Positions 639 to 23,175 of a stretch of DNA of 62,625 nucleotides are shown one piece after another. The position numbers were made by a program, and so were the translations under genes. Every line of letters begins with the position of its first letter. Position 1 is the stretch's first letter. The stretch covers positions 1 to 62,625 of the forward strand of contig JAJDOI010000075.1 in assembly GCA_022340245.1 (NCBI GenBank), read 5' to 3'. This DNA is from Thiogranum sp. (GTDB lineage: Bacteria; Pseudomonadota; Gammaproteobacteria; DSM-19610). The notes below the pieces were generated by a model. That model was not told the DNA's origin. It did no database searches and worked only from the letters and a program-made list of their open reading frames with translations.

Positions 639-974
639 ATGACCAAAACAACCTTAGTGAAACCCCTGTCCGTTGCTATCGGTGCTGCATTTGTCGCGTC
701 GCTTGCCGGCACGACAGTTGCCAGCGCCGCTGACAACCCCTTCGGCATGTCCCAGCTGTCGAGCGGCTATATGGTCGCCGAGGAAGGCAAGTGCGGCGGG
801 AGCAAGGCGACTACTGAAGAAGCCAAGCCCGAAGGCAAGTGCGGTGCAACCAAGAAAACCGTCAAAGAAGGCAAGTGCGGTGAAGGTAAGTGCGGTGCCA
901 AGCGCGAAGCCCACGAGGGCAAGTGCGGCGGCGAGAAGAAACCCGCTGAAGGCAAGTGCGGCGCAAGCAAGTAA
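639..974 (+). CDS. hvfA: HvfA-type EGKCG-repeat copper-binding RiPP precursor
   Basis: A 111-residue secreted precursor. Residues 1-30 form a Sec signal peptide (Ala/Val-rich core, cleavage likely after ASA). The rest is low-complexity, rich in Lys, Glu and Gly, with six EGKCG pentads at residues 49-53, 65-69, 77-81, 82-86, 93-97 and 104-108. All six cysteines of the protein (52, 68, 80, 85, 96, 107) sit in these pentads. In the HvfA family a DUF692 enzyme converts such cysteines to oxazolone/thioamide pairs that bind copper; that activity here is inferred from the motif and the neighbours. An AAGGAGG Shine-Dalgarno lies just upstream, pointing to high expression. First gene of hvfABCD, 12 bases before hvfB. 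Confidence 0.9.
   Translation: MTKTTLVKPLSVAIGAAFVASLAGTTVASAADNPFGMSQLSSGYMVAEEGKCGGSKATTEEAKPEGKCGATKKTVKEGKCGEGKCGAKREAHEGKCGGEKKPAEGKCGASK
783..962 (+). repeat. Six imperfect 15-base repeats encoding EGKCG
   Basis: Each EGKCG pentad is encoded by nearly the same 15 bases (GARGGYAAGTGCGGY). Spacing between copies is irregular, at 16, 12, 5, 11 and 11 residues, and the third and fourth copies are directly adjacent. The high nucleotide identity suggests growth by duplication and a potential for copy-number change. Confidence 0.9.
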
Positions 975-986
975 TTCAGGCCTGCC

Positions 987-1847
987 ATGACGGATTCAAG
1001 CTATCCCGTTCATGGTGCCGGTCTGGGGCTGCGGCGGACCCTCATGGGTCCGCTCGTGGACCAACCGGCAGATCAGGTTGGCTTTTATGAAGTCGCACCG
1101 GAAAACTGGATCGGTGTCGGCGGACGACTTGGCAAGCAGTTGCGCGCTTTCACCGAGCGTCACCCCTTCGTCACGCACGGCCTGTCACTTTCGATCGGTG
1201 GCCCCGCTCCACTGGATGAAACTTTTCTGCACCGCCTCAAGCGTTTTCTCGACGAACACCGGATAAGCACCTACACCGAACACCTCAGCTATTGCGCCGA
1301 TGACGGGCACCTGTATGACCTGATGCCGATCCCGTTCACGGAGGAAGCCGTGAGGCACGTGGCCGAACGTATCCGCCGCACCCAGGATATCCTCGAGCGG
1401 CGTATCGCCATGGAAAACGTTTCCTACTACGCGGCACCCGGCAAACAGATGGAGGAAATCGACTTCCTCAACGCCGTGCTCGAAGAAGCCGATTGCCAGC
1501 TGTTGCTCGACGTCAACAATATCTACGTCAACAGTGTCAACCACCGCTACGACGCGGAAGAATTCCTTTGCGCACTGCCCGCCGAGCGGGTGGTGTATTT
1601 TCACATCGCCGGCCACTACAACGAGGCCGAAGACCTGATTGTCGACACCCACGGCGCCGATGTCATCGACCCGGTGTGGAACCTGCTCGACAAGGCGTAT
1701 GCCCGGTTCGGCGTGGTGCCGACGCTGCTGGAACGCGATTTCAACATACCGCCCCTGCCGCAGTTGTTGACCGAAGTTGACCGCATCGTCGACATCCAGA
1801 ACAGGCATACCGGAGCAAAAACCGCAGCCCATGTCCGCCATGGCTGA
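987..1847 (+). CDS. hvfB: HvfB/BufB-type multinuclear iron oxidase (MNIO, DUF692)
   Basis: A 286-residue TIM-barrel enzyme of the DUF692 (MNIO) family, cytoplasmic. Characterised members use two or three iron ions and oxygen to remodel cysteines in a partner peptide. Expected metal-ligand motifs are present: THGLSLS (His64), EHLSY (Glu98-His99), ENVS (Glu143), DVNNIYVN (Asp175), HIAGH (His206, His210), DTHG (Asp220, His222) and ERDFNIP near the C-terminus. Length is normal. It follows the EGKCG precursor by 12 bases and overlaps hvfC, so the substrate is almost certainly the neighbouring peptide. The ATG at 987 gives the expected N-terminus with the GLGLRR motif. Confidence 0.93.
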
Positions 1848-2613
1848 ACCGGCCTTTATTCAGCAGCAGTATGCCTTTGCGGCGCATATCCGCGACCCGC
1901 GGCACAATGCCGCTCCGGCCGGCATCGAAGACCGCCGCATGGGCATCTATCGGGAACTGTTCTTCAACAATGTCGAAGGCTTTCTCGCCAGCAGTTTTCC
2001 CGTATTGCGTAAACTGATGGATGACCACAGCTGGCACGCCCTGGCACGCGACTTTTTCGCCGGCCACCGGTGTCACTCGCCGCTGTTTCTGGACATCCCG
2101 CGCGAGTTCCTCGACTACCTCGACGAGGAACGTGACGAGCAGGGAACCGACCTGCCTTTCATGCGCGAACTTGCCCATTACGAGTGGGTGGAACTCGCGC
2201 TGTCCGTCGCCGAGAACGACCAGGGCGCGCCGGTCGCCGTAGAAGGTGACCTGCTCGCCGGTCCACCGTTGCTGTCTCCGCTCGCCTGGCCCCTGGCCTA
2301 TCAGTACCCGGTGCACCGGATTAGCCCCGACTTCCAGCCCCGGGAGCCTGATCCACAACCGACCTACCTGCTGGTGTACCGCGATACGCGGGACGAAGTG
2401 GGATTCATCGAATTGAATCCGGTCAGCGCACGCCTGTTCTCGCTGTTGCAGGAACAGCCCGGGCACAGCGGCCGCGCCCAGTTGCAGCAGATCGCCGCCG
2501 AGCTGCGGCACCCCGACCCCGAACTGGTCATTCAAAGCGGCCACGCCATCCTCGATGAGTGGCGCCGTCTGGACATCGTGCGCGGCATCAGTCCGAACAG
2601 CCCCGAAAAGTAA
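1831..2613 (+). CDS. hvfC: HvfC/BufC-type partner protein (DUF2063)
   Basis: About 260 residues with the DUF2063 N-terminal domain ([13 protein letters not shown], then [24 protein letters not shown], residues about 10-60) and a more variable C-terminal half. In characterised MNIO pathways this protein forms a complex with the DUF692 enzyme and recruits the precursor's leader. The chosen start, ATG at 1831, overlaps the hvfB stop by 17 bases; a second in-frame ATG at 1840 is equally possible. The overlap argues for translational coupling with hvfB. No signal peptide, so it acts in the cytoplasm. Confidence 0.9.
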
Positions 2614-2634
2614 CAACAAGCAAGGAGACACCGC

Positions 2635-3225
2635 ATGTATCCCCTCGTGCAACTGCAACGCCTGCTCGACACCACGCGCGCTTTTGATTTCCTCGGACCG
2701 CTGGCCCTGAGACTGTACCTGGTACCCGTCTTCTGGATGGCCGGAACCAAGAAGCTGGCCGATATGGACAGCATCATCGAATGGTTCGGCAACCCGGACT
2801 GGGGCCTGGGCCTGCCGTTTCCCGAAATCATGGCGTGGGCCGCGGCGCTCACCGAAGCCGGCGGTGCGGTGCTGCTGCTGATCGGTTTTGCGGTACGCTG
2901 GATTTCCGTACCGATGATGGTCACCATGGTCGTCGCTGCAGTCACCGTGCACTGGCCCAACGGCTGGCTGGCCATCGCCGAAGGCAGCGGTCCGTTCGCC
3001 ACCGAACGCACCATGGGCGCGGTGGAACGCCTCGACAGAGCCAAGGAAATCCTGCAAACCCACGGCAACTATGACTGGTTGACCCAGAACGGCAGCTTCG
3101 TGGTACTGAACAACGGTATCGAATTCGCCGCCACCTATTTCATCATGCTGCTGGTGCTGTTCTTCATTGGCGCGGGGCGCTTTTTCAGCATGGACTACTG
3201 GATCCGGCGGGCCTTCATGCGCTGA
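2635..3225 (+). CDS. hvfD: DoxX family membrane protein of the copper-RiPP operon (HvfD-like)
   Basis: A 196-residue inner membrane protein of the DoxX family with about four hydrophobic segments (around residues 20-40, 65-85, 90-110 and 160-180). DoxX proteins are regular members of HvfABC/BufABC operons, where their role is not settled; suggested roles are redox coupling or membrane assistance. A polar insert at about residues 120-155, between the third and fourth segments, is larger than in minimal DoxX proteins. AAGGAGA precedes the ATG at a good distance. Last gene of the hvf unit; the copper ATPase starts 85 bases further on. Confidence 0.85.
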
Positions 3226-17265: not shown

Positions 17266-20200
17266 TCACTGTTTTGAGGGCAAATCCGCGGCATTGTCGC
17301 TCAATTCGCGAGTCCTTTCATAGTTCAGGCACGGTGTATCGGTGCCTTCGGCACCAAATTTCTCCCGAATGTAGTCAGACGCCGTCAAGCCCACAAATAC
17401 ATACGGCGCGAACAGCAAGGTGCCGAATGTCAACGCCGCGGACTTTACCGGAATGGCGGTAACCGAAGGATTCAGCAACGGGCCTTTCACCTTCACCGGT
17501 TCCGCCTTGAGTATGACGCGGCTTTTCTTCTTCGGGATAAACACGTAGTTAATCTGCTCCTTGCCGAAGTCTATGTCTCCATCACCGGTGATCGTAATGT
17601 TCTTCGTATCGAGGAAGAAGCCCCTGGTGGATGCAACGCCATTTTTCACCGTGAAGTCGGCGACGCCACAGGTGATATCCAGGTATTTGCTGTCGCTGAT
17701 CTTGCTGGCTGCCCAGCCGGCGATATCGACAAACAGCAGATCCACCAGGGAGCGACTAATCTTGCCGTGCGTCGAGGTCACAAACAGACCGCCGTCGAGG
17801 GACGAAACCAGCTGGTAAACACTCCTGCCGCTGGCATCGAGGTGGATATCCACGTCCATAGCGGCGCCAAAGCCCGCCTCGTTTGCTTGCGCCCAGCGTG
17901 GCATATCCCGCCAGGGATCGATATCCTTTCCATAGGCCCTGAAGGTAAACTGCGGTTTGTCGCGTGCGTCCACAGACAATGCCAGCTTCAATTGCCCTTT
18001 GGGATAAGTCACCACCGCCGGGCCGGCCTTCAGCAGACCGGAGTGCACTGTTACGGTCACGTCGGCCGACCGGGCCGGTGAAGACGCCGGGTCGAAAGAC
18101 GCCACATGAACGCCAAGATTCAGCTCAAAGGTCTTCAACCAGCCGAGATCGATCGGCTCGCGGGAAAACAGCGCCTGGGTAACTTTCTCCGCGGCCTTTT
18201 CGCGCTCCGCACGCTGGTCGGCGACTTTCTGGAAGAAATCCGGCAGCGCGAGTTCATGCAGGGTGACCTTGCCCCCGAAGCGCGGCGGATCGGTGTCGAA
18301 GTTGCCGTGCAGGTTGGCCTCCAGAGCCTTGGGCCCGGCCTTTAGCGTTAAAGCCAGCTTCGTCAGGTTTCCGTCCTGGCCAAGGTCGCCATTGATATCG
18401 ACTGGCCCGTACGCCGGCCATTCCTGGTCGAACAGCGCGCCGATCAGCGCCAGGTCACGCGCCCTGCCTTCGGCATTGAGCCTGAGTGTCCGGGGTTTCT
18501 GGAAATCGACGAAACTGCCATTGATATCGACATGCAGAGCCGGGTCGTCGCTGCTCAGGCGCAGCGATTGTATGCCCACAGCGCCGTTGCGGTCCGCTAT
18601 CCGCATACTCCCCGTCAATGGCGCCAGGTCTTGGACGGCCTGCCTGTCGGCAAATGCGGCCAGGTTGTGACCGTCGATATTCAGCATGGCGTCGATATCG
18701 ACGTTCCTGAACGCATACAGGTCATCGATACGCCCAAATGCTGACATCGCCGGGACACGGCCTGCCGAACCGATACGCAGACGCAGGTCATCCAGGGCGA
18801 GTTTTGCATTCCTGTCTTTAATCGTCGCGCTCGCCGACAGCGGACCGAGCGGCGGCAGCCGGTAGCCTTCGGCTTTTGCCAGCGCCTGGCTGCTGTCGGC
18901 CGCGGCTTCCAGCTTCAGGTCAGTGCCATGCAGCGCCCAGCCACCACGGGCGTCCAGCCTGCCCACCTGGCCGGATAGCGACACCTGGAGCACAGCCTTG
19001 TTGCCGGCGACCAGGTGTGTCTCGCCGATGGTGATAGCCTGGTCGCTTCCGGTGATCCGGGAACGCAACTCGAAAGCACCCGCAGGCGGTATCCACTCGC
19101 GTCGCAAACTGAACAGACGGTTGAGCGCCGCGGTGTCCCCGCCCTTGCCCACCAGTTCAAGTTGTATGCCGGTCAGCGCCGGCTTCGGCAACACATCCAG
19201 ATTGGATGCGGATCCTGTCACCGCCACCTGTACCGCCGCACTCTTCACCGTGCGCAGCGAAAAACCATCCAACCGGTGTTTGCCCGACACAGTGCGAACC
19301 CGGCCGTGCGCCTCAAGTGCACCCAGCTCCGGCAATGCCCCACCATCCGTAATTTTCCCCAGTGCTGCGGTGGTACGACTGTAGCCGTCGATTTCAAGAG
19401 CGATATCTTTGAGCGGATCTGCTTGTGCCCAGTCGCCGAAACCCAAACTGCCGCCGACCTTGATCACCAGCGCCCTGTTGGTGCCTGCTACCAGGCGGAT
19501 ATCGTTTAACTGCAGCGCGGGCGTGTCGCCTGCTATCCTGAAACCGAGATCGAGGGGTCCGCTGAGCGGCAGGTCAAGGCCAACAGCGCCAAGCGCCGCA
19601 CCCGCCTTGTCCGCCGCAATGGCTACGTTCAGAGCGTAACCCCGGTTTGGTTCATCCGGGCTCAGGGGGAATTGTCTTATCGTGCCGTTGATCTTGACCG
19701 AAGTGCCGCTCCCATCCTGTGTCGCGACAGCGACGTTGTCGAATGCCGGTGGGCCGGTGACGGAACGAATATCGGCACGCCCGGTGATGGCGCCGAACTC
19801 CGGGACGCTATCGAACAACAGACCGCGTGCCGCCCGTGTGGTGGGGGCCGCAAAATCCAGGGTCGCGGCAATCTGCTCGGCAGCGAAACCGCCGTCCGCC
19901 TGTTGCCCAAGCTCGAAGCGTCCGCCAACACCAATCTTCAATTGTTCGGCGGTTTCGGCATCAAGCTGAAAGTCGTCGACCGCCAGCCGTTCGCGGGTAC
20001 CCGTTAACGTCGCTTTCACCCCGGCCCGGGCGATCGGCGCCAGACTGTCGGGCAACTGCCCGGTCAGCCAGTCCGGCTTGTGAATAGCAGCGTCCAGGTT
20101 CATACGGATGCCGCCAAGTTCGAGCAGCTTGCCTATACGGCCGTCGAGCTGCGCCGTTGAATGGTCGGGACCGTTCCACTCACCCTTGATATCCGAGACC

Positions 20201-21033
20201 GCGAGCTGCTCGAACGGTCCGGAAACAACCGCCGCCAGGGTAAGTTCGCCGGGAACCCGCAGGCCATCAACACCCGTGGGCCATTTTGACAGGTCCCCGG
20301 TATGCAGTTGCAGGCGCGCGTCGATGCCCGCGCCGGCCGGCGCAAAGTCCGCCTGGCCCTTGATCTCGACATCGGCAAGAGCGCCTTTGACATTGACCAC
20401 AAACGGCAACGGCTGATTACGGCCGACGTGAAAGAAGGCTGGCAGTGTGGCGTCAATGTGCAAAACATCAGCCAGCACCCTCACGTCTGCAGAAAGCTCG
20501 GGCGTGGCATCGTCCGATGCCAGTTGCAGACTGAGTTCGCTGATCGTCCCGGCAGCTATTTTCCAGTCGCGGTCCTGCGCAGACACGGACAAACGGGCCA
20601 GACGAACCTCGTGCAGTACCGGTTTGAACCAGAAAAGTTTCGGATCGACACTCACGCCACCGCCCCCGCCGGGCGCGCGCAGCACCTGGACGCGGGTATT
20701 GCCCAGTACCAAACGCAAAACATCGAGGCGACCGCTCAACAGGGCGGGCAAACTGACCTGGATATCGAGGGAATCGGACGCCACCTGAAACGACTGCCGG
20801 CTGTCGACAATCTGCAGCGCCTCGAACTGCAGTTCCGGTGCAAAGCCGCGTGTCAGGCTCGCGGGTTGCCGGTAAGTGATCTGTGTACCGCTCGCTGACT
20901 CGATCCCTCTTACCACCCAGGACACCAGCGTCGCATCGTCGACCAGCGCAATCACCGCAAGTCCTGCCAACAGCAGGACGGCGGGCACCAGCAGCAACGC
21001 CAGCAAGGTACGTTTGGTAGTCAAAAACGACAC
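17266..21033 (-). CDS. Large AsmA-like envelope protein
   Basis: A 1255-residue protein with one N-terminal membrane anchor (residues about 8-32) and a long periplasmic part of repeated beta-strand segments (xLxLxGxxxD patterns). The C-terminal AsmA_2-like segment contains GDIDFGKEQINYVFIPKKKS, followed by LLNPSV and a short hydrophobic stretch at about 1200-1220. AsmA-like proteins (TamB/YhdP relatives) are thought to form hydrophobic grooves that carry phospholipids to the outer membrane; this is family knowledge, not shown here. GTG start. It converges with psd across 67 bases, which share a lipid theme. Confidence 0.85.
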   Translation of the reverse strand: MSFLTTKRTLLALLLVPAVLLLAGLAVIALVDDATLVSWVVRGIESASGTQITYRQPASLTRGFAPELQFEALQIVDSRQSFQVASDSLDIQVSLPALLSGRLDVLRLVLGNTRVQVLRAPGGGGGVSVDPKLFWFKPVLHEVRLARLSVSAQDRDWKIAAGTISELSLQLASDDATPELSADVRVLADVLHIDATLPAFFHVGRNQPLPFVVNVKGALADVEIKGQADFAPAGAGIDARLQLHTGDLSKWPTGVDGLRVPGELTLAAVVSGPFEQLAVSDIKGEWNGPDHSTAQLDGRIGKLLELGGIRMNLDAAIHKPDWLTGQLPDSLAPIARAGVKATLTGTRERLAVDDFQLDAETAEQLKIGVGGRFELGQQADGGFAAEQIAATLDFAAPTTRAARGLLFDSVPEFGAITGRADIRSVTGPPAFDNVAVATQDGSGTSVKINGTIRQFPLSPDEPNRGYALNVAIAADKAGAALGAVGLDLPLSGPLDLGFRIAGDTPALQLNDIRLVAGTNRALVIKVGGSLGFGDWAQADPLKDIALEIDGYSRTTAALGKITDGGALPELGALEAHGRVRTVSGKHRLDGFSLRTVKSAAVQVAVTGSASNLDVLPKPALTGIQLELVGKGGDTAALNRLFSLRREWIPPAGAFELRSRITGSDQAITIGETHLVAGNKAVLQVSLSGQVGRLDARGGWALHGTDLKLEAAADSSQALAKAEGYRLPPLGPLSASATIKDRNAKLALDDLRLRIGSAGRVPAMSAFGRIDDLYAFRNVDIDAMLNIDGHNLAAFADRQAVQDLAPLTGSMRIADRNGAVGIQSLRLSSDDPALHVDINGSFVDFQKPRTLRLNAEGRARDLALIGALFDQEWPAYGPVDINGDLGQDGNLTKLALTLKAGPKALEANLHGNFDTDPPRFGGKVTLHELALPDFFQKVADQRAEREKAAEKVTQALFSREPIDLGWLKTFELNLGVHVASFDPASSPARSADVTVTVHSGLLKAGPAVVTYPKGQLKLALSVDARDKPQFTFRAYGKDIDPWRDMPRWAQANEAGFGAAMDVDIHLDASGRSVYQLVSSLDGGLFVTSTHGKISRSLVDLLFVDIAGWAASKISDSKYLDITCGVADFTVKNGVASTRGFFLDTKNITITGDGDIDFGKEQINYVFIPKKKSRVILKAEPVKVKGPLLNPSVTAIPVKSAALTFGTLLFAPYVFVGLTASDYIREKFGAEGTDTPCLNYERTRELSDNAADLPSKQ

Positions 21034-21347
21034 TGGTTCAATCCCTCAACGCGAGCATGCGCGTGCCAGCACAAGCTCACGCAAAAAAAAACCGGGAGCC
21101 AGACCGCGCCGGCGCCGGATCATCTGCTCACGGCAAGCCACTGTCAAGCGAATCCACGGTCGCTGACCGACGCCGCGCACACAAAACCTGATTATATGCG
21201 CTGGCGGCGCCCGCGCCTATGGCACAGATACAGGAAACACCCTGCTCGTCAAGAACTTGCACCCCCCCGAAAAAGAACGGCGCCGGCCTGTTAACCCCGG
21301 CCCGCGTACCGCGTTAGTAAGCCCTGTAATCAGACGAGGAGCGAACA
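21034..21347. other. Intergenic region between divergent asmA-like and His-rich genes
   Basis: A 314-base spacer that should hold promoters for both divergent genes. On the plus side GTTAACC is followed after about 15 bases by CGTTAG, close to 21300-21335, roughly the layout of an ECF-sigma promoter (AACC ... CGTT) for the His-rich gene whose neighbour is an ECF factor; this is a weak visual match. An A9 run lies near 21082. No gene or RNA is recognised. Confidence 0.4.
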
Positions 21348-21737
21348 ATGCGAAATCTCTACGGAAAACTGGCTGTTCTTATCCTGGCGATACCCGGCTT
21401 CGGGTTGATCCAGACGGCGCAGGCCGATCATCGGCCCAGCGTGATTCACGCCACCGGAAGCTATTATACTGCCTACCAGCTGCCGCACTATTACCGCTAC
21501 GTGAACCCCTGGCGCGACCGCCACTTTCGCGGCTATCGGCCCCACGGATTCACGCATAACAGGCAGCACCGGGAACGCTACGGCGATCACTATTCCTATG
21601 AGGATCATTTCGACAGGCACGATCACAAACGGCAGGGCCACGATCGGCATGGGCGCAGAGACGATCACGGCAACGGGCACGCCGAGCGCAAACACCATAA
21701 TGGGAAGTATCCCGCGTATGCCGAAAACCACCGGTAG
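21348..21737 (+). CDS. Histidine- and tyrosine-rich secreted protein
   Basis: A 129-residue protein with a clear Sec signal peptide (cleavage likely after QTAQA, about residue 26). The mature part has about 18 His in about 103 residues, often as DH, GH or RH pairs, and is rich in Tyr, Arg and Asp. It has no Cys. The composition suggests periplasmic binding of Ni, Cu, Zn or Co, but no known family is recognised. A GAGGAG ribosome binding site precedes the ATG. It ends about 100 bases before an ECF sigma gene on the same strand, so it may be a target or a co-transcribed part of that regulon. Confidence 0.7.
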   Translation: MRNLYGKLAVLILAIPGFGLIQTAQADHRPSVIHATGSYYTAYQLPHYYRYVNPWRDRHFRGYRPHGFTHNRQHRERYGDHYSYEDHFDRHDHKRQGHDRHGRRDDHGNGHAERKHHNGKYPAYAENHR

Positions 21738-21840
21738 TGATGAGCTGCTGTTGTTGCCGGCTGGCTGTACAGCCGGCGACAGCGTATTCTTTAACCCGAT
21801 GGATATGGAACTTCCCGGCACCGGGCGCGTGAGTGAGCGA

Positions 21841-22410
21841 ATGTCACTGGACAACTTTCTCGGTGGGATACAGCGCAAGGCCTATCAAGTCGCCTACGGT
21901 GCCCTGTGGGACCGGGAAACCGCGCTCGACGTCGTACAGGACAGTATGCTGCGCTTCGTCGAGTACTACCGCGACAAACCCGAATCGGCCTGGCCGGCCC
22001 TGTTTCGCAGCGTGCTCAACAGCCGCGTGAATGACCAGCGTCGCAAGCGGCTGCTGGCAAAAACCGGCCGCAAGCTGCTGTCGCTGACCGGCCTCAGGCT
22101 GGTTGACGCTGACGACGATGAACAGCTCAAGGAGGCCGACCTGCCCGCAAACGAGCACGCTGCCGGTATCGGCGCCCCCGAGAACGGGGCTGTCGCCGGC
22201 GAACTCAAACAGGCTATCGAACAGGCGGTAGGCACACTGCCGGAGCGCCAACGGCAGGTGTTCCTGTTGCGTGAACAGATGGGCCTGAGTATTCAGGAGA
22301 CCGCCGATACTCTGGGTGTTTCCGCGAACAGTATCAAACAACATCATTTTCGTGCGTTGCGCGCCCTGCGCCAACAACTCGCTGAGGTATGGGAACATGA
22401 ACAAGCCTGA
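21841..22410 (+). CDS. ECF-type RNA polymerase sigma factor
   Basis: About 189 residues. Region 2 (ALWDRETALDVVQDSMLRFVEYY) and region 4 (LPERQRQVFLLREQMGLSIQETADTLGVSANSIKQHHFRALRALRQ) are clear, with no region 3, as in ECF factors. I chose ATG 21841 (MSLDNFLGG); GTG 21829 four codons upstream is also possible. The stop overlaps the start of a zinc-finger anti-sigma gene by 14 bases, the usual pair. The set ECF, anti-sigma, DUF3106 recurs in gammaproteobacteria, but the signal is not known to me. Confidence 0.92.
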   Translation: MSLDNFLGGIQRKAYQVAYGALWDRETALDVVQDSMLRFVEYYRDKPESAWPALFRSVLNSRVNDQRRKRLLAKTGRKLLSLTGLRLVDADDDEQLKEADLPANEHAAGIGAPENGAVAGELKQAIEQAVGTLPERQRQVFLLREQMGLSIQETADTLGVSANSIKQHHFRALRALRQQLAEVWEHEQA

Positions 22411-22825
22411 GCAACATCCGGACAGCGAGCGGCTGGACCGGTTGCGGTCCGGACTGCTCGACGACAGCCCGCTGGAGAAGGCATCGCTCGAAGCGCATCT
22501 GCAACAGTGCGACTACTGCCGTCGCGCCTACCAGTGGCCCGCGCAACTTCGCGCGGCCAGCCCCGTGCCGGACGAACGGCTTGATCGGCTGCGCCATGAG
22601 GCTCTGGCTGCGCCTGCGGCGCACCGGCCACGGCTGCTGATCCCGGTGGCCGCCGCCGCGGCCGTGGCGCTGGTGACGGTTGCCCTGTTCAGTCTGCTGC
22701 CGGGACCGGGAAGCGACAGCCCGCAAGTCGCCGCCAGCAGCCAGAGCGTACCCGATCTCTATGAGGATCTGGACTTCTACCTCTGGCTGGCCGACCATAA
22801 GGCCCCTGGCGACTCCTCGACCTGA
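22397..22825 (+). CDS. Zinc-finger anti-sigma factor, membrane-bound
   Basis: A 142-residue protein. Residues His34-Leu-Gln-Gln-Cys38-Asp-Tyr-Cys41 form the HxxxCxxC zinc-binding anti-sigma (ZAS) motif, followed by one membrane segment at about 79-101 (LIPVAAAAAVALVTVALFSLL) and a short acidic periplasmic tail (YEDLDFYLWLAD). It should hold the preceding ECF sigma at the membrane until a periplasmic or redox signal releases it. The ATG lies inside the sigma gene's last codons. The short tail suggests that another periplasmic protein, perhaps the DUF3106 product, senses the signal. Confidence 0.88.
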   Translation: MNKPEQHPDSERLDRLRSGLLDDSPLEKASLEAHLQQCDYCRRAYQWPAQLRAASPVPDERLDRLRHEALAAPAAHRPRLLIPVAAAAAVALVTVALFSLLPGPGSDSPQVAASSQSVPDLYEDLDFYLWLADHKAPGDSST

Positions 22826-22830
22826 GACCT

Positions 22831-23175
22831 ATGCGCAAAAAGACACTTTATGCCATCGGCATCGGCCTGATCATACTGCTGAGCACTAACGCCCGGGCCA
22901 GCGTTGACAGTTACCGCCTGTACCTGGCCCAGCGCGGCGACATCCCCTGGCAATCGCTGAGTCCGGAAGAACAGGACGCGTTGCGGCGCTACCGCAATCA
23001 GTGGGACGGCTACAGTGGCGAGCGCCAGCAGGAAATGCGCCGCGGGGCGCAACGCTACCTGGACCTGCCACCGCAGAAACGCCGCGAGGTCGAACAACAG
23101 CGGCGCCAATACGAGGAAATGACGCCGGAACAGCGCCGCCGGCTGCGCGAAGAGTACCAGCGCGAAAGACACTAG
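22831..23175 (+). CDS. DUF3106 family periplasmic protein
   Basis: A 114-residue protein with a signal peptide (residues 1-24, cleavage after ARA) and a highly charged helical mature part rich in Arg, Gln and Glu (PPQKRREVEQQRRQYEEMTPEQRRRLREEYQ). The WQSLSPEEQDALRRYRNQWDGYS segment matches DUF3106. The layout is reminiscent of CpxP/Spy-like or CnrX-like periplasmic helical sensors that act near ECF/anti-sigma pairs; this parallel is inference. It starts five bases after the anti-sigma gene, so one operon is likely. Confidence 0.85.
   Translation: MRKKTLYAIGIGLIILLSTNARASVDSYRLYLAQRGDIPWQSLSPEEQDALRRYRNQWDGYSGERQQEMRRGAQRYLDLPPQKRREVEQQRRQYEEMTPEQRRRLREEYQRERH

Follow-up and report, generated by a model that had tools for sequence, protein, structure and literature searches.

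Four genes lie on the forward strand between positions 21348 and 23175 of the window, i.e., the whole stretch of 62,625 nucleotides from Thiogranum sp. that was analysed. The first gene (21348..21737, +) encodes a secreted His-rich protein of 129 amino acids. Its signal peptide ends in AQA and leaves 103 mature residues with a pI of 9.7, of which 18 are His (17.5%) and none is Cys; a preliminary description of this DNA had given these counts as approximate, and they are exact. The protein thus has the His-rich secreted chain of histidine-rich metal-binding proteins. Read in the two remaining forward frames, this DNA encodes 0 and 2 His, and among all open frames of at least 100 amino acids in the window that of the His-rich protein has the highest His density (17 per 100; runner-up 14). 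In 14 members of the family, His makes up 17.2% of the pooled mature residues, with a range of 10-26% and only 10-12% in one clade (L065-L067). Between close pairs, substitutions are in excess at the third codon position (39 against 18 and 17; 52 against 26 and 25), which indicates selection at the protein level.

The second gene (21799..22410, +) encodes an ECF sigma factor with 52-72% identity to those of 10 relatives. It matches Pfam Sigma70_r4_2 (E 8.6e-17) and TIGR02937 (E 3.4e-23), both over cut-off, and has regions 2 and 4 without region 3, as in ECF sigma factors, the region 2 model alone being under its cut-off. The start is most likely the ATG at 21799; several relatives seemingly start at a TTG after GGAG. 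The sigma stop is overlapped by the start of the third gene (22397..22825, +), which encodes a membrane anti-sigma factor whose short periplasmic tail follows a single apparent membrane helix. Here, as for the signal peptides, the helix was read from the sequence by eye. Its motif HLQQCDYC is of the Hx3Cx2C type of class I ZAS anti-sigma factors, and H34, C38 and C41 are invariant in an alignment of 12, with the Pfam zf-HC2 match (E 0.0012) staying below cut-off. The tail carries the peptide PDLYEDLDFYLWLADH (22751..22798, +), in which P119, Y122, E123, L125-L131, D133 and H134 are invariant in the same 12 sequences. The conserved part of this peptide is LYEDLDFYLWL, and the form PDLYEDLDFYLWLADHK holds the FYLW aromatics. 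Within the genus, H134 is the only His of the tail that is invariant, and two more distant genomes, G361 and G316, lack it.

Five bases after the anti-sigma gene begins the fourth gene (22831..23175, +), which encodes a short secreted DUF3106 protein of 114 amino acids with an apparent signal peptide. It matches Pfam PF11304 (E 6.3e-14; 52.8 bits against a cut-off of 24.3) over model positions 1-74 of 104. From an alignment of 13 sequences and an AlphaFold model (pLDDT 82.6; helices 45-60, 63-78, 81-96 and 99-113), it is predicted to be a small Arg-rich helical repeat. The charges of the two periplasmic elements are opposite, with a pI of 4.1 for the anti-sigma tail and 9.5 for DUF3106. The profile matches and the invariant ZAS residues bear out the set of ECF sigma, ZAS anti-sigma and signal-peptide-bearing DUF3106 protein that had been described here.

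Linkage and genomic setting of the four genes

In relatives of the same or a sister genus, the His-rich gene precedes the sigma gene at all 11 loci with readable upstream DNA. At 10 of them, an open reading frame of 118-135 amino acids with a signal peptide, rich in His, Arg and Tyr, ends 49-112 bases before the aligned sigma start, and in the eleventh (L141 of genome G011) the His-rich gene was located on a second contig. Two loci from outside the family, in G361 and G316, are arranged likewise; their mature His-rich proteins contain 32 and 17 His, and each locus has a promoter-like element. Since the whole gene arrangement is conserved, a chance arrangement is excluded; judged by gene order, the four genes are one unit, and the His-rich gene belongs to it. 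The preliminary description had staked its proposal on this linkage in relatives, and the linkage holds.

Related records are from Thiogranum and Thiohalobacter, gammaproteobacterial sulphur oxidisers. In most congeners, the set is flanked by psd and an inositol-monophosphatase (IMPase) gene. The set is precisely absent from G013, where about 107 bases separate psd from the IMPase gene. In G003, G005 and G011 the set lies away from psd; the His-rich gene is kept in G005 and G011, and this region of the G003 assembly is broken by N. In the window, a large AsmA/YhdP-like gene (17266-21033, minus strand) is found between psd and the set, where relatives have other genes or nothing. At one locus of G012 (L067:5709-8161), there are two short DUF3106 genes about 1.7 kb apart.

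A 14-bp hairpin (21750..21783, +; RNA fold z = -5.6) lies between the His-rich and sigma genes. It is a possible partial terminator or attenuator, and a role as a conserved attenuator was rejected because it is seen in the window only and is not conserved in five relatives tested. This strong hairpin, parting the two genes in the window, speaks for the idea that the His-rich gene is an independent passenger beside an unrelated ECF operon. However, the linkage survives relocation of the set, a footprinted promoter sits before the His-rich gene, and the five relatives tested lack the hairpin, so that this idea is largely refuted and highly improbable.

The predicted promoter and its targets

When the 170 bases before the His-rich start were compared among 11 aligned loci, one conserved block was found, GTTAACC-N15-CGTTAG, in which the length of N15 is fixed while the spacer and the flanks are unconserved. 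In the window, this predicted ECF promoter lies at 21290..21317 (+) before the His-rich gene, where an AACC...CGTT-type promoter had been guessed. The copy in G005 is off consensus (GGTAACT...CGTTAA). The regulon prediction rests on pattern searches. Across 17 congener genomes, GTYAMCC-N15-CGTTAR gives 17 matches, of which 10 lie upstream of His-rich genes, 5 upstream of genes for a Gly-zipper-like protein and 2 elsewhere, compared with 8 matches for the reversed pattern in the same genomes. The five of these genomes that lack the set have no match to GTYAMCC-N15-CGTTAR. The two further matches (G003:C1:1282746 and G004:C38) share no target and were taken as chance. The sharing of the element by the His-rich operon and the Gly-zipper gene suggests a small regulon, as had been supposed.

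Members of the Gly-zipper family combine a signal peptide with a variable His/Tyr-rich stretch and a Gly-zipper-like helix, and their C-terminus, CLQEREYQ...AYGTACLQPDGSW, is invariant. No Pfam model matches the members themselves; the resemblance of the C-terminus to 17-kDa surface antigens is judged via a weak relative, L150, which matches PF16998. The promoter element precedes all eight orthologues, although the copy at L147 is weaker. Weak partial matches aside, the gene is found only in genomes with the set, a pattern that relatedness may partly explain; most set-bearing congeners have it, and four do not. The protein of the window species has only about 4 His. Its structural model is of low confidence (pLDDT 59.3) and for this reason was not used in fold searches.

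The ydbL gene (DUF1318) was considered as a third target, since its orthologues carry RATAACC...CGTTAG, and was dropped because four congeners that lack the cassette have similar elements too. This conserved RATAACC(TTTTCC)...CGTTAG-like element, seen upstream of ydbL at L154-L164 and at G000:C159:13774-13802, is probably the target of another ECF sigma factor.

Related DUF3106 operons and the anti-sigma tail

The same genome has a second DUF3106 operon (G000:C190) of a kind typical of many gammaproteobacterial families. Such operons share with the cassette the order of sigma, anti-sigma and DUF3106, and often a small secreted low-complexity protein as the first gene. Upstream of sigma, 20 of 24 of these loci have TYAACC-N15/16-CGTT, against a chance of 0.2% per region by first-order resampling of the same regions; this is the promoter type TGTCAACC-N15-GCGTT, as in the cassette. 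Unlike in the cassette, the sigma factors are only about 33-40% identical to that of the window, the DUF3106 proteins are longer with more repeats, and the anti-sigma factors are mostly without a detected ZAS motif. A YExLDFYxWL-type peptide with its DFYxWL core is found in the anti-sigma tail at 23 of the 24 loci. The cytoplasmic part is ZAS in the cassette and DUF3619-like in L070, the one example tested. Since the tail peptide is common while the cytoplasmic part differs, the tail rather than ZAS is the likelier element linked to DUF3106. It has been proposed that ZAS motifs of membrane anti-sigma factors may be structural rather than sensory (PMC7406223).

The first gene of these operons is not His-rich. 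Between promoter and sigma, most loci with a gene there have a secreted protein with RGDRIDRRLDRKGDR repeats (RGDR), one has a TQ-rich protein, and others have none. Small secreted proteins with RGDRIDRRLDRKGDR repeats lead the operons at L016, L070, L127, L214 and L221. At L227, a TQTQTQ-rich secreted protein is found upstream of sigma in place of an RGDR or His-rich gene. This comparison shows that promoter type, tail peptide and DUF3106 stay constant, and that what varies is the secreted gene at the head of the operon. As far as sequence conservation can tell, the set is a conserved cassette for envelope signalling whose secreted first gene can be exchanged, and the His-rich form is one variant of it. 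A broader proposal is rather unlikely: a large undescribed gammaproteobacterial class of envelope-sensing systems, defined by YExLDFYxWL, a DUF3106 partner and GTYAACC-N15-CGTT, might switch lineage-specific low-complexity secreted proteins (His-rich, RGDR-repeat, TQ-rich), with the His-rich branch as a two-target periplasmic metal-buffering regulon.

Among the open-access papers searched, no paper was found that names DUF3106, in keeping with the earlier impression of an undescribed system, and no paper links DUF3106 or DUF3619 to ECF sigma factors. The large re-classification of ECF sigma factors may already include this group under a number, which limits any claim of novelty. The widespread but functionally uncharacterised family DUF3106 is now tied to a specific anti-sigma peptide, a searchable promoter and small secreted target genes. 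The signal and the contact between DUF3106 and the anti-sigma factor thereby become directly testable.

Candidate signals and roles of the secreted products

Taken as a whole, the locus is best explained, with somewhat better than even probability, as a self-contained and positively autoregulated envelope-signalling cassette. The ZAS anti-sigma factor would keep the ECF sigma at the membrane, with its own LYEDLDFYLWL tail in the periplasm. Judging from co-occurrence and charge, the secreted DUF3106 protein is the most likely partner of the tail peptide, which it may shield or present. An envelope signal would then displace DUF3106 or expose the tail, and the anti-sigma factor would be inactivated. 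The freed sigma would transcribe its own operon from the conserved sequence GTTAACC-N15-CGTTAG, with the His-rich protein first, and in most set-bearing congeners presumably the Gly-zipper gene as well. The periplasm or the outer membrane would be the site of action of the secreted products. The RseA/RseB/sigma-E system of Escherichia coli likewise has a periplasmic protein that guards a single-pass anti-sigma factor on its periplasmic side. The proteins there are unrelated and the promoter is another one.

The layout had also been compared with Cnr, with DUF3106 as the metal sensor. In CnrYXH of Cupriavidus metallidurans, a membrane anti-sigma factor and a periplasmic protein control an autoregulating ECF sigma, and CnrX is the Ni/Co sensor (PMC4803752). 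If the cassette worked in this way, DUF3106 would bind a periplasmic transition metal, sigma would be released, and the His-rich buffer would be induced. The presence of an ECF sigma, a membrane anti-sigma and a periplasmic protein in one operon fits this idea, as do the pooled His content of the first-gene product and the His/Tyr-rich N-terminal stretch of the Gly-zipper target in several species. However, the invariant residues of DUF3106 in the alignment of 13 include neither His nor Cys nor an internal Met, and neither PDB sequence profiles nor fold searches matched it to CnrX, Spy, CpxP or ZraP. The LTXXQ family (CpxP, Spy, ZraP) was not detected in it by Pfam at E up to 1, nor was a Spy-type fold. 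Matches to RecA were discounted as helix or low-complexity matches in which no stretch passed by itself. The anti-sigma factor CnrY belongs to class II (PMC7406223), whereas the one here is of the class I ZAS type. The tail residue H134 of the latter is not kept in G361 and G316. Cnr has no His-rich first gene, and conversely the set has no efflux or dedicated metal genes. The broader DUF3106 operons, moreover, have first genes that are not His-rich. A Cnr-like system is quite unlikely on these grounds, and the role of metal sensor given to DUF3106 found no support.

Just upstream of psd, the window and most relatives have sco and PCuAC, two genes that might suggest a link to copper. They were rejected as evidence for copper, and they count against a Cnr-like system, because the sco-PCuAC-psd block keeps its order in G006, G009, G013 and G016, which lack the cassette, and where the cassette has moved.

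Under the envelope-signalling cassette, the His-rich chain could plausibly bind metal on chemical grounds. Periplasmic or outer-membrane buffering of transition metals is the leading candidate for its role, tentatively assigned at a little under an even chance. Otherwise, it would be a polycationic envelope protein, and such a general role is possible since the chain is rich in Arg and Tyr and has equivalents elsewhere that are not His-rich. A separate rival reading holds that the cassette is an envelope or outer-membrane stress system, in which the basic DUF3106 repeat sees a polyanion or a misassembled component, the polycationic and Gly-zipper products stabilise the outer membrane, and His is incidental to a basic, aromatic, disordered chain. 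The first-gene products are indeed basic in both variants (pI 9.2-11.2 across the His-rich family; two RGDR proteins have 9.8 and 11.8), the second target is Gly-zipper-like with a 17-kDa-antigen-like C-terminus, and the regulators are conserved while the low-complexity content differs. On the other hand, His enrichment recurs in 14 family members from several genera, even though Arg and Lys would suffice for the charge. A stress system of this kind is a serious possibility, though less likely than not. If the His-rich product binds metal, the cassette would provide an ECF-controlled periplasmic metal buffer unlike known ones.

Operons for copper-buffering RiPPs (bufferin-type) also produce secreted metal-buffering products, and some are under ECF control. 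In these respects they resemble the proposed His-rich cassette, from which they differ in having a Cys-based precursor with an MbnB-type enzyme. The window itself has such an operon, separate from the cassette, and the cassette promoter is absent from it (639-2613). It starts with a secreted precursor with EGKCGG/EGKCGA repeats (639-974) and an MbnB/TglH/ChrH enzyme (987-1847; Pfam E 5.9e-107), followed by a probable MbnC-type partner ending at 2613 and a DoxX-like membrane protein. A heavy-metal P-type ATPase follows; it and the enzyme are the parts of this region (639-3225) that were checked against Pfam.
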